Position numbers and translations under genes: made by a program. From positions 1-64,000 of the forward strand of contig JAIXQA010000036.1 of the NCBI GenBank assembly GCA_027485915.1: DNA of 64,000 bases, given 5' to 3'. The DNA is from Alphaproteobacteria bacterium. Its GTDB lineage: Bacteria; Pseudomonadota; Alphaproteobacteria; Caulobacterales; Aquidulcibacteraceae. The notes under the pieces were generated by a model. That model ran no database searches. It saw only the letters and a program-made list of their open reading frames with translations, and was not told where the DNA came from. Below are positions 18,452 to 28,486 of this stretch, piece by piece (the first letter of the stretch is position 1; every line of letters begins with the position of its first letter).

Positions 18452-19807
18452 TTACTTTGGACTCTCTGGTGCGCCGTCAACATAAATCCAATCGCGCTCC
18501 AACAATTTGGAAGAAGCAAACAAGAGGGCAGCCGCAATCAGATAGAAACTGGTCCCACATAAAATTGAATAGCGCAACGACTCCTCTCCAAAGCGCGCAG
18601 CCAAACCATCGGACATCGCACCTAATAGCAAGTCGCCTAAACCAATCCCAACCAGATTATTGATGAGCAAAAAAAGGGCAGAGGCCGTCGCACGCATATT
18701 TGGCGGCACAATCCCTTGAAAGGCGGCGAGCACAGGTCCTAGCCAAGCAAGCCCAAGTGCCGTTGGGATCAAGAACACAAAGAAAGACACCCAAATAGAG
18801 TCCGACAAGATACCAAAAGCAAAGAATGGCGTCGTCGCAACAAATGCGAGAGCAGGCACCAGAGCATATGCTCCTTTGTTCTTTGCGCCGAAGCGGTCGC
18901 CCAATTGTCCGCCAAGCCAAATGCCGATCAACCCACCAACCAGAACAATCGTACCATAAAAATAACCCGCATAGAGCAGGGGCCCTGCGCCTTCGGGGAT
19001 CATCCAGTCAGGTAACCATGCCATGGCTTTTCCGAGCTCTTCACCCCAGGACCTAACAAAAAAAGCGGGCAGCCAAGCAAATAAGCCATAGCCCATCATG
19101 GAAGAGGAGGCCGCGCCGAGTGACAAGGTCCAGAAGCTTGGCTTTTTAACCAATACAGCAATGACTTCATTGAGTTTTGCAGGAGCGACTTTCGAGCCAG
19201 GCGGATCGTAGCGACCTCGGACAGGCTCTTTCATGAGAATTTTGAAAATAGGGGCAAATGCCACCCCCATGATACCAACGATGATAAAGGCCCAGCGCCA
19301 GTCAAGCACGGTCGCAATTACGCCACCAAAAATAATGCCAACCGCTGAGCCTATCGGAATACCAAAGGAATAAGCTGCCATAGCCCGCCCCCGCCTATCC
19401 GGGGGGAAATAGTCAGATAGTAGCGAATAGGCAGGTGCCACTCCGCCAGCTTCGCCAACGCCAACCATGAGGCGCGCGGTGAATAATTGCCAAAAATTCT
19501 GGGCTAAACCACACAAGGCTGTCATCGCGCTCCAAAGAGTAAGCGCAATCGTCATGATCCAAGTGCGGTTGAACCGATCTGCTAAAAGGGCGATCGGAAC
19601 GCCTAATGTTGCATAGAATAAGGCAAAGGATAAGCCCCGCATCAGGCCCAATTGGGTGTCACTCAGGCCCAGCTCTTTTTGGATCGGGATCGACAAGATG
19701 CCAATAATCTGACGGTCCAGAAAGTTAAACGTATAAACGGTGACCAAAAGGGTCAGGACAAGCGCGCGATAGGCTGGGCTTGGATCATTGGCCTCATTGG
19801 GGTGCAT
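18452..19807 (-). CDS. MFS transporter (spinster-like)
   Basis: 451 aa from the ATG at 19807 (AAGG 7 nt upstream; a GTG two codons earlier is an alternative). Twelve membrane segments carry the MFS signature between helices 2 and 3, GVPIALLADRFNRTW, and VGVGEAGGVAPAYSLLSDYF in helix 4, typical of spinster-like and anion/sugar-acid porters common in Caulobacterales and sphingomonads. It follows a TonB receptor and an alpha/beta hydrolase on the same strand, so it probably carries the product of their shared pathway across the inner membrane. Substrate unknown. A TTTGAA-C-TTCAAA palindrome lies past its 3' end (18421-18433). Confidence 0.9.
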   Translation of the reverse strand: MHPNEANDPSPAYRALVLTLLVTVYTFNFLDRQIIGILSIPIQKELGLSDTQLGLMRGLSFALFYATLGVPIALLADRFNRTWIMTIALTLWSAMTALCGLAQNFWQLFTARLMVGVGEAGGVAPAYSLLSDYFPPDRRGRAMAAYSFGIPIGSAVGIIFGGVIATVLDWRWAFIIVGIMGVAFAPIFKILMKEPVRGRYDPPGSKVAPAKLNEVIAVLVKKPSFWTLSLGAASSSMMGYGLFAWLPAFFVRSWGEELGKAMAWLPDWMIPEGAGPLLYAGYFYGTIVLVGGLIGIWLGGQLGDRFGAKNKGAYALVPALAFVATTPFFAFGILSDSIWVSFFVFLIPTALGLAWLGPVLAAFQGIVPPNMRATASALFLLINNLVGIGLGDLLLGAMSDGLAARFGEESLRYSILCGTSFYLIAAALLFASSKLLERDWIYVDGAPESPK

Positions 19808-26795: not shown

Positions 26796-27782
26796 TTAGC
26801 ACTTGGAGTCAGGTTTTGTGGATAGGACCAGCGCAGCGCGAGGAACAATTTTCAAACAGACTGAGGGACCAAAGTTGCGCCTTTCCCCATCAACGAGACC
26901 CACAATTTCTTCTCCGTCAAATTCGATGACTTCCTCGGTCGCGACTTGGGTATAAGCAAAGGGAAGTCGTCGCCACCGGCGCATCAAGACATTGGCTGCC
27001 AGCCGCAGGGTTGAGGGGATACCCCGCAAGCGCGCTGCAGCAATTTCCAGTCCTTGTTCGGGAAAGTCTTTACTCTGCGATCCGAGGCCAAAGGCATTGT
27101 CGACAAAGTTAGGCGCTGCAATCACAACATCATGAGTGCGTCCTGTTGTCTGTGTTGCAAGTTTTCCGGAGAACAAATCCCGTCGCAGGGACTTGAGCGC
27201 GCCAAGCCCATGCAATAGACCCTTCGAGCGGATTGCTTCGCGCATATCATGAAAAGCCATCCAAGGCCCAAAGCCGGAGGCAACCAAGAAAACATGTTCA
27301 TTCGCATGGCCGCCAGACAGCCAAACCGGCTTCGCCTGCACAAAGTCACGTAGGGTTCTTGATAAATTCGCATGCCCATGAACCCGGTGACATAAGCGGT
27401 TTAAGGTGCCGCCGGGCAGGGGCAAAACTGGCACACCCAACCCACGAAGGGCAAGCGCAACGGTCCTAGCCGATCCATCGCCGCCGAAAATGCCAATTGC
27501 TTGCACCCCCTGCCGCGCAAGAGCCAAAGACTTTTCGTGGAGTTCGCTGCCAGCGCAACGGATCAAAGGGACACGCTCTTCCAGTCCGGCCATTCTTAAG
27601 GCCCTGTTCAGGCGCGAAGTACCGAAGAAGCGGTACGCGCCGGCGGAAACATTGACCAGGATTGCGAGCGCAGGTGCATCTATATGAAGGGGGAAGGTGA
27701 GCGACACATTCGGTTTTGGCTCGAACCGATTTGAGTCAAAACATCCAACTGAATTTGGTCTCTCGTCAAGGAGATTGGTCAT
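26796..27782 (-). CDS. Diacylglycerol/lipid kinase family protein
   Basis: 328 aa from the ATG at 27782; the frame can be extended to a TTG at 27812. The catalytic domain shows ILVNVSAGA (nucleotide strand), IGIFGGDGSARTVALALRG with the GGDG motif, and LPLPGGTLNRLCHRV, which stands for the family's PxGTxND (Asp is replaced by Arg). The C-terminal beta-domain contains DGEEIVGL and GPSVCLKIVPRAALVL. It probably phosphorylates a lipid such as diacylglycerol or a sphingoid base at the membrane. It is coupled to the metallophosphoesterase. Confidence 0.82.
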   Translation of the reverse strand: MTNLLDERPNSVGCFDSNRFEPKPNVSLTFPLHIDAPALAILVNVSAGAYRFFGTSRLNRALRMAGLEERVPLIRCAGSELHEKSLALARQGVQAIGIFGGDGSARTVALALRGLGVPVLPLPGGTLNRLCHRVHGHANLSRTLRDFVQAKPVWLSGGHANEHVFLVASGFGPWMAFHDMREAIRSKGLLHGLGALKSLRRDLFSGKLATQTTGRTHDVVIAAPNFVDNAFGLGSQSKDFPEQGLEIAAARLRGIPSTLRLAANVLMRRWRRLPFAYTQVATEEVIEFDGEEIVGLVDGERRNFGPSVCLKIVPRAALVLSTKPDSKC

Positions 27783-27834
27783 CGGGCGGCTCAAAACAAG
27801 AGAGATGGGCAAGTAAGGTCAGGAGAGAAGGCGA

Positions 27835-27950
27835 CCCTTGCGCGACCAGACGGGGGGAAGGTCTGCGCGCAAGGGCCGTTTGGGTGAATGACAATTGCAC
27901 TTCTTGCTAGCATTCACCCGCGGTAGGCTTGGGGGCGGGGCGGCCTACCG
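27835..27950. ncRNA. Candidate small RNA: three perfect stem-loops in tandem
   Basis: Three perfect hairpins follow one another. (1) CCCTTGCGCG 27835-27844 with 27866-27875, continuing as CAGAC 27847-27851 with GTCTG 27861-27865. (2) GGGTGAATG 27882-27890 with CATTCACCC 27911-27919 and a 20-nt loop. (3) CGGTAGGC 27921-27928 with GCCTACCG 27943-27950. Loops 1 and 3 are G-runs on the plus strand, hence C-runs on the minus strand, which could pair with Shine-Dalgarno sequences as some alphaproteobacterial sRNAs do. The region lies between two minus-strand genes and no long frame explains it. Strand and promoter are unknown. Confidence 0.5.
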
Positions 27951-27963
27951 ATCTGGGTGGACG

Positions 27964-28164
27964 TTAATGGCCGATGGCCATCGCCCGCTCTGGACGCGGC
28001 GGCGTAACACCCGCCGCAACCAACTGGTCTTTAACGAGAAGCTTTTGGCGCTTCAGTCGCGTAATCAGCTCGGGCTCAGGGAATGGCCGTTTTATCAGAG
28101 CGGCCAACTCGCTTTCCAGTCTAGAGTGATGGCTCTTTAAGGCTTCGATACGTCCAAGTTTCAT
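27964..28164 (-). CDS. DUF465/YdcH-family small protein
   Basis: 66 aa from the ATG at 28164, set by GAGGAG 7 nt upstream. It is a short, charged, mostly helical protein (HHSRLESELAALIKRPFPEPELITRLKRQKLLVKDQL), the coiled-coil pattern of DUF465. Function of the family is not established. A structured region (28236-28314) lies in its possible 5' leader. Confidence 0.85.
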   Translation of the reverse strand: MKLGRIEALKSHHSRLESELAALIKRPFPEPELITRLKRQKLLVKDQLVAAGVTPPRPERAMAIGH

Positions 28165-28235
28165 GTCATGCTCCTCTATGCTTATGCATGGCAGAGCCCG
28201 TGGTACGCGGTTGGGGCGAAGGAATTGGGACCCTG

Positions 28236-28314
28236 ACACCGCGCCTCACAAAGGACTCCGGTGTGGCCGACATCGCAACTCACGTTTGAGTTGCCAGAGG
28301 GGCCCGGTCCACAC
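28236..28314. promoter_or_regulatory. Candidate leader with mutually exclusive helices
   Basis: The 322-bp gap 28165-28486 separates divergent genes and has no gene of its own. It contains GCAACTCA-CGTT-TGAGTTGC (28275-28294), a perfect 8-bp hairpin, enclosed by GTGTGG 28261-28266 pairing with CCACAC 28309-28314. The same GTG bases also form CGGTGT 28259-28264, which pairs with ACACCG 28236-28241. The two outer helices exclude each other, as in attenuators and riboswitches. I recognise no known riboswitch class, and the strand is uncertain. Confidence 0.35.
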
Positions 28315-28486
28315 GCAATCAAGATGGGGTCACCCCCCTCAATGCGCAACCGACAAAATTGTGACCTCACTAGCTTGTGAGAGTTTGTTGATGAGACCAG
28401 TGCTGGAGGGGCAAGTCCTTGGCTTGGATCGGAATGCACGCATGTTAATGTGACGGCGCTTAGGTTCAAAACAGCGAGATAAGTCG

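Follow-up and report, generated by a model that had tools for sequence, protein, structure and literature searches.

A three-hairpin candidate regulatory RNA downstream of a DUF465 gene and a terC RNA in Aquidulcibacter

Introduction

What is the function of three hairpins packed into 116 bases between two genes of Aquidulcibacter? The hairpins (positions 27,835 to 27,950) lie in a stretch of 64,000 nucleotides, referred to below as the window (assembly GCA_027485915.1, contig JAIXQA010000036.1, positions 1 to 64,000). A sequence-only reading of the window had described three tandem stem-loops outside any gene, with C-rich loops on the minus strand that might bind Shine-Dalgarno sites, as do the anti-Shine-Dalgarno (anti-SD) loops of some alphaproteobacterial small RNAs (sRNAs). 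In the analysis reported here the observation was confirmed, and its interpretation was partly supported.

Results

Structure and gene context of the hairpins

Three hairpins were found in a row on the minus strand, and their stems agreed with those described before (10 + 5 bp with a 2-nt bulge, 9 bp and 8 bp). The order on this strand is terC RNA, DUF465, the three hairpins and a diacylglycerol-kinase-like gene, with the following coordinates.

28346..28395, minus strand: conserved block upstream of the terC RNA, GTGA-n-TCAC, from an alignment of five species and genome G003
28259..28315, minus strand: terC RNA (RF03067), Rfam score 57.2 bits, above the gathering score of 39.9
27964..28164, minus strand: DUF465 (PF04325) small protein gene, 66 aa, directly before the hairpins
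27921..27950, minus strand: hairpin 1, 5'-most of the three, with a stem of 8 bp and a C-rich loop at 27929-27942, core CCGCCCC
27882..27919, minus strand: hairpin 2, with a stem of 9 bp; AGAA is conserved in its 20-nt loop
27835..27875, minus strand: hairpin 3, with a stem of 10 + 5 bp interrupted by a 2-nt bulge and a C-rich loop at 27852-27860 that includes UCCCCCC
26796..27782, minus strand: diacylglycerol kinase catalytic domain protein, next same-strand gene past the hairpins

The description of the stretch as lying outside any gene holds for coding sequence; a DUF465 stop codon is, however, located only 13 nt upstream on the same strand, and the ATG of the kinase-like gene (27782) 52 nt downstream. 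The stretch is a 3'UTR or intercistronic element and not an isolated locus. On the minus strand, the loops read CGCCCCGCCCCCAA in hairpin 1 (27929-27942) and CTTCCCCCC in hairpin 3 (27852-27860). The tail past hairpin 3 is pyrimidine-rich and has no clear U-tract.

That a DUF465 gene with an upstream terC RNA precedes the hairpins had not been foreseen in the sequence-only reading. The terC RNA ends 94 nt before the DUF465 start and was the sole Rfam match at the locus, even at E values up to 10; none of the alphaproteobacterial sRNA families to which the loops had been likened was matched. In most of the loci seen the terC RNA keeps a CCCCUCU that might base-pair with the ribosome-binding site of DUF465 at its AGAGG (28293-28314 with 28171-28197, minus strand); this pairing was absent from the five MFE folds. 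Between 26500 and 29000 on the minus strand, neither an intrinsic terminator nor a sigma-70-type promoter was found. The 50-nt GTGA-n-TCAC block is kept in the five species and partly in G003, and is a candidate promoter or operator region. A viral origin was rejected, as 0 of the 34 matches to the DUF465 pattern in viral contigs was a relative.

Folding of the minus strand between 27820 and 27965 gave an MFE of -60.4 kcal/mol, compared with -40.35 ± 3.66 kcal/mol for 200 dinucleotide shuffles (z = -5.48; 0/200 as good). For the plus strand of the hairpin region z was -2.39, and 4 of 200 shuffles folded as well. Each of the three stem sequences occurs once in the window, and the whole element is single copy in its own genome by both DNA search and covariance model; the remaining matches of the DNA search covered just 14-27 nt, with E values of 0.31 or worse. 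A REP-like repeat family was rejected on this single copy. A coding function of the stretch was likewise rejected, given indels of 1-2 nt between species and loops that change freely.

The rarity of such clusters was assessed in a 464-kb sample, consisting of the window and 20 stretches of 20 kb from the same genome. Perfect stems of at least 8 bp closing loops of 4-20 nt numbered 198 in this sample, and three of them were grouped within 120 nt at just one further place, a repeat region where groEL ends. The present cluster escaped the scan because 21 nt lie inside the outer stem of hairpin 3. At this groEL (PF00118) 3' end (L123 19242-19400, G000:C25), two near-identical copies of about 76 nt with strong hairpins start at 19242 and 19318; they overlap the groEL stop codon and continue past it.

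Conservation within the genus

Close orthologs of the DUF465 gene were detected in five of nine Aquidulcibacter genomes, window included, and the protein of the window is 86-92% identical to those of the four other genomes. In all five the gene is preceded by the terC RNA and followed by all three hairpins, with the kinase-like gene downstream of these (5/5). The kinase-like gene is thus found in the four other hairpin-bearing species, and also in G003, another member of the genus; here terC and a degenerate DUF465 are kept as well, while the hairpins are missing and the covariance model finds no match. In G002, G004 and G006, neither a DUF465 ortholog nor the kinase gene was found.

A structure of 29 pairs was formed in 99.3% of the 145 pair cells of the five-species alignment. 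Both sides had changed in 7 of the 29 pairs, a value reached by 5 of 500 shuffles. Such compensatory changes, which had been sought as a mark of conserved pairing, occurred in all three helices (3/9 pairs in hairpin 1, 2/8 in hairpin 2 and 2/12 in hairpin 3, five species). The covariation score was 0.307 versus 0.159 for shuffled alignments (0/500 as high), and slid controls gave 0.021-0.055. Further pair types did not exceed the shuffles (12 versus 11.3; 235/500 shuffles reach this number). Covariation support for the three-hairpin structure is good but not deep, because the structure was drawn from the same five sequences, representing about three lineages. A covariance model (R1) matched 27826-27953 at 122.9 bits, the window being one of its five building sequences.

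G-U pairs occupied 7 of the 145 pair cells on the minus strand, and one cell, the C-A that closes loop 1 in the window, would become G-U if the plus strand were the RNA. As G-U pairs occur almost only on the minus strand, this strand is favoured as the RNA, in line with the strand assigned earlier.

Loop cores and modelled pairing with translation starts

The C-rich loops reported on the minus strand have conserved cores. CCGCCCC in loop 1, AGAA in loop 2 and UCCCCCC in loop 3 were present in 5/5 sequences, with six C in a row in loop 3 (seven in L020). Invariant columns made up 6/7 of the loop 3 core, compared with 1/5 in the linker and 1/7 in the tail. For the loop 1 core the count was 5/8, lowered by a 1-nt shift of the core, and for loop 2 as a whole 5/22; outside the cores the loops are variable. 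Since 4-fold sites of the DUF465 coding sequence were identical between lineages at only 10/28, 11/29 and 12/28 positions (36-43%), the loop cores are, judged by this alignment, kept beyond drift while the stems change letters in pairs. Such a pattern is more typical of a recognition loop than of a terminator or stabiliser alone.

Pairing was modelled for 327 genes from the 464-kb sample, a rough choice of ORFs of at least 150 aa with the longest ATG start. Loop 3 paired better with the start region (-25..+5) than with -90..-60 (p = 1.7e-5), +100..+130 (p = 0.0016) or +200..+230 (p = 0.034), and GGGGG was present in 14 start windows versus 5-6 in the controls. No start-region preference was detected among these genes for loop 1 (p = 0.25, 0.81 and 0.98) or loop 2 (p = 1), and GGGCGG, part of the loop 1 complement, was rarer at starts (2 windows versus 8, 9 and 9). 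The anti-SD sequence of 16S rRNA, used as control, behaved as expected (all p < 1e-8).

The proposed binding to Shine-Dalgarno sites therefore fits loop 3, which prefers starts, and is not supported for loop 1, which does not behave as a Shine-Dalgarno mimic. CCUCC is absent from the loops.

Distribution outside the genus

The three-hairpin model gave no convincing match outside the genus in 60 family and 299 order genomes, searched with filters that can lose weak matches. The three-hairpin form is thus represented by five sequences from about three lineages of one genus. In the family, 7/60 genomes had matches at E ≤ 0.1, five of them genus members. The other two were judged chance: one (L082, E = 7.5e-5) lies within a gene, antisense to a Schlafen/AlbA-type protein, the other (L083, E = 0.022) inside a methylmalonyl-CoA mutase gene. 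The order search yielded 11/299 genomes at E ≤ 0.01, namely the five of the genus and six weak matches (E = 0.004-0.01), five of which fall in a single other genus (g23); none was counted as a member. The sixth weak match (L100) lies inside a phage prohead-protease ORF. An unfiltered model search returned 42 matches in 8 loci, including L095 (0.0038) and L094 (0.015), which were also set aside, as they are not at DUF465 3' ends.

In two of the g23 loci (L098 and L099, about 1530-1600), a 103-aa ORF is followed by a terminator-like hairpin with the loop UCCUCUUCCCCC. This lone hairpin has the loop UUCCCCC and a T-rich tail. The 103-aa ORF of L098 had no Pfam match. L101 carries the same hairpin by alignment only, and L102 a different one; these four loci account for four of the five g23 matches.

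The terC RNA itself is far more widespread, with occurrences in 46/60 family genomes (up to 8 per genome) and 57/150 order genomes. With a script pattern, 115 distinct terC-like elements were recognized in the fetched loci, 32 of which were followed by a DUF465-like gene; beyond the genus, DUF465 calls were made with a six-sequence profile at E < 1e-3, and a few are weak (e.g. L093). A hairpin with a UCCC or CCCC loop followed 14 of these 32 terC-DUF465 genes: 5/6 in Aquidulcibacter, 8/14 in g11, a second genus of the same family, and 1/12 elsewhere. Where it occurs in g11, the element is a lone hairpin whose loop retains UCCC even as both sides of stem pairs change (e.g. C-G to T-A, T-A to C-G); one of six g11 hairpins (L094) is unpaired at the outer three positions in the register used.

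Outside Aquidulcibacter, UCCC/CCCC loops thus followed 9/26 genes (9/16 of those with a hairpin; 10-15 bp stems in all nine cases), and a C-rich loop was lacking in 17/26. At ordinary gene ends such loops were present in 2/68 hairpins (804 genes, two genomes). The difference between 9/16 and 2/68 was significant (Fisher p = 1.4e-6), where the scan covered 90 nt with a minimum stem of 8 bp for the 26 genes, and 80 nt with a minimum of 9 bp for the background. UCCC loops were also found at 6/12 DUF465 genes with terC versus 0/30 without (p = 1.8e-4), where the 12 terC loci leave out G003 (L084) and L019 is counted with the genus. One of the 30 genes without terC has a CCCCA loop; with CCCC counted, the comparison becomes 6/12 versus 1/30 (p = 0.001). 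These p-values overstate independence and support, because eight of the nine cases belong to g11 and are not independent.

Genes downstream of terC in the fetched loci encode TerC (PF03741), an NhaA-type Na+/H+ antiporter (PF06965) and DUF465. Further neighbours were a Zn-ribbon protein (PF13453) and weak matches to Bax1-I and Usp below the cut-offs; the antiporter, the Zn-ribbon protein and some weak neighbour matches were identified from 70-residue fragments, and other neighbours were named by eye. The terC RNA is often multi-copy in the family (loci L084-L096 and L153-L207, and the window).

Comparison with known small RNAs

Caulobacter belongs to the same order as Aquidulcibacter. Its general-stress sRNA GsrN is described as pairing with G-rich targets through a loop that contains six tandem C (PMC5869019). 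Its BLASTn homologs are given there as limited to Caulobacteraceae and typically near general-stress genes, and its sigma-T promoter as GGAAC and CGTT, 15-17 nt apart. Loop 3 resembles GsrN in its six or more C (5/5), with target pairing modelled only. By contrast, the hairpin RNA follows the DUF465 gene and has no sigma-T promoter: GGAAC-N15-17-CGTT was found within 700 nt upstream in 0/5 loci, as an exact or a loose pattern.

The gene ccaF1 of Rhodobacter sphaeroides encodes a DUF1127 protein, and the CcsR RNAs carry the C-rich recognition motif CCUCCUCCC. The published text on these RNAs describes CcsR1-4 as cut from the 3'UTR of ccaF1, with the small protein CcaF1 affecting their maturation from its own 3'UTR (PMC8625941). 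Like CcsR, the present locus has RNA elements in tandem within the 3'UTR of a small-protein gene, together with a C-rich motif. It differs in its host gene (DUF465, PF04325, instead of DUF1127), in having three hairpins with different loops and in the lack of an Rfam match; the motif CCUCCUCCC is absent from the hairpins.

Rfam includes the cuckoo or alpha-r14 (NfeR1) family. The sRNAs alpha-r14, NfeR1 or 'cuckoo' of Rhizobiales are described as three hairpins with variable stems, in which the same anti-SD target-pairing motif is unpaired in all three loops (PMC7143759). Here, too, three hairpins with variable stems hold a candidate target-pairing motif in their loops, but the loops differ from each other (CCGCCCC, AGAA, UCCCCCC) and only loop 3 is start-directed; the gene context is also unlike, and Rfam returned no match to the hairpins. 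In Staphylococcus, UCCC-motif sRNAs expose UCCC in hairpin loops aimed at Shine-Dalgarno regions, in an organism and sequence unrelated to the Aquidulcibacter hairpins.

The hairpin RNA is filed under none of GsrN, CcsR and alpha-r14, because Rfam matched only terC, the sigma-T promoter was found in 0/5 loci, the RNA follows a DUF465 gene and no single anti-SD motif is repeated across its loops. In the literature search, no paper was found that joins DUF465 and an sRNA, and Aquidulcibacter together with small RNA or sRNA was not found among the matches listed.

Discussion

The reading preferred here, with a probability of roughly 55%, is that the hairpins form a 3'UTR-derived small RNA or a regulatory 3'UTR, in the manner of GsrN, CcsR and alpha-r14 and perhaps under terC control. 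With the structure, strand preference, location, conservation and loop-core conservation established, the 116 bases would be the folded 3' portion of a minus-strand transcript that includes terC and DUF465. This message, through predicted co-transcription, would end in, or run through, a three-hairpin RNA that presents conserved C-rich loop cores and might act after release as an sRNA or while still attached. For loop 3 (UCCCCCC) the partners would be G-rich sites in translation-start regions, for loop 1 (CCGCCCC) G-rich targets of another kind; such base-pairing would alter the translation or stability of the target messages. The amount of hairpin RNA would then track the terC-controlled DUF465 transcript.

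The main rival is a cis-acting intercistronic element with no targets in trans, which would make the DUF465 message more stable, act as a partial terminator or fix how much DUF465 is made relative to the kinase. It was considered a serious but unlikely alternative. The position of the hairpins between two same-strand genes in 5/5 species speaks for it, as do the many terC-DUF465 loci of g11 with a single strong hairpin directly after DUF465 and the T-rich tail after stem 3 in the relative L020. A bare stabiliser or terminator, however, needs no conserved loop cores while its stems covary. No terminator was called at the hairpins, and C-rich loops are rare in ordinary gene-end hairpins (2/68); G003, moreover, keeps the downstream gene yet lacks the hairpins.

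The same genome lends itself to another explanation: hairpins accompany an intact DUF465 gene in 5/5 genomes and are absent where it is degenerate (G003), as might be expected if the loops were a protein-binding site, for instance for the DUF465 protein itself, serving feedback or RNA processing. The repetition of a C-rich theme in two loops and the precedent of CcaF1 and CcsR as described (PMC8625941) are in keeping with such a site. It is nevertheless rated improbable, as the start-region preference of loop 3 is what a base-pairing RNA is expected to show. Least probable by far is an element acting at the DNA level, or a chance set of GC-rich inverted repeats; inverted repeats fold on the plus strand too, but the element is single copy, pairs have changed on both sides, and G-U pairs occur almost only on the minus strand.

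The neighbours of terC suggest a cation or alkaline-pH regulon, perhaps wider than the name terC implies; no ligand of the terC RNA was found in the portions of the literature searched. If such a regulon exists, the same signal would be expected to raise the level of the hairpin RNA. A bolder version, possible but with the odds clearly against it, is a two-ended gene, in which a riboswitch-like terC leader would sense cations or alkaline pH and gate a DUF465 message with a C-loop sRNA at its 3' end. The abundance of an RNA that acts in trans on translation starts would then be set directly by one RNA sensor; in Aquidulcibacter this gene would carry three hairpins, and in at least one other genus of the family a single one.

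For Aquidulcibacter, the hairpins represent a covariation-supported candidate regulatory RNA, predicted to be carried on a conserved small-protein transcript, and the link to terC would allow the signal and the RNA alike to be tested directly.
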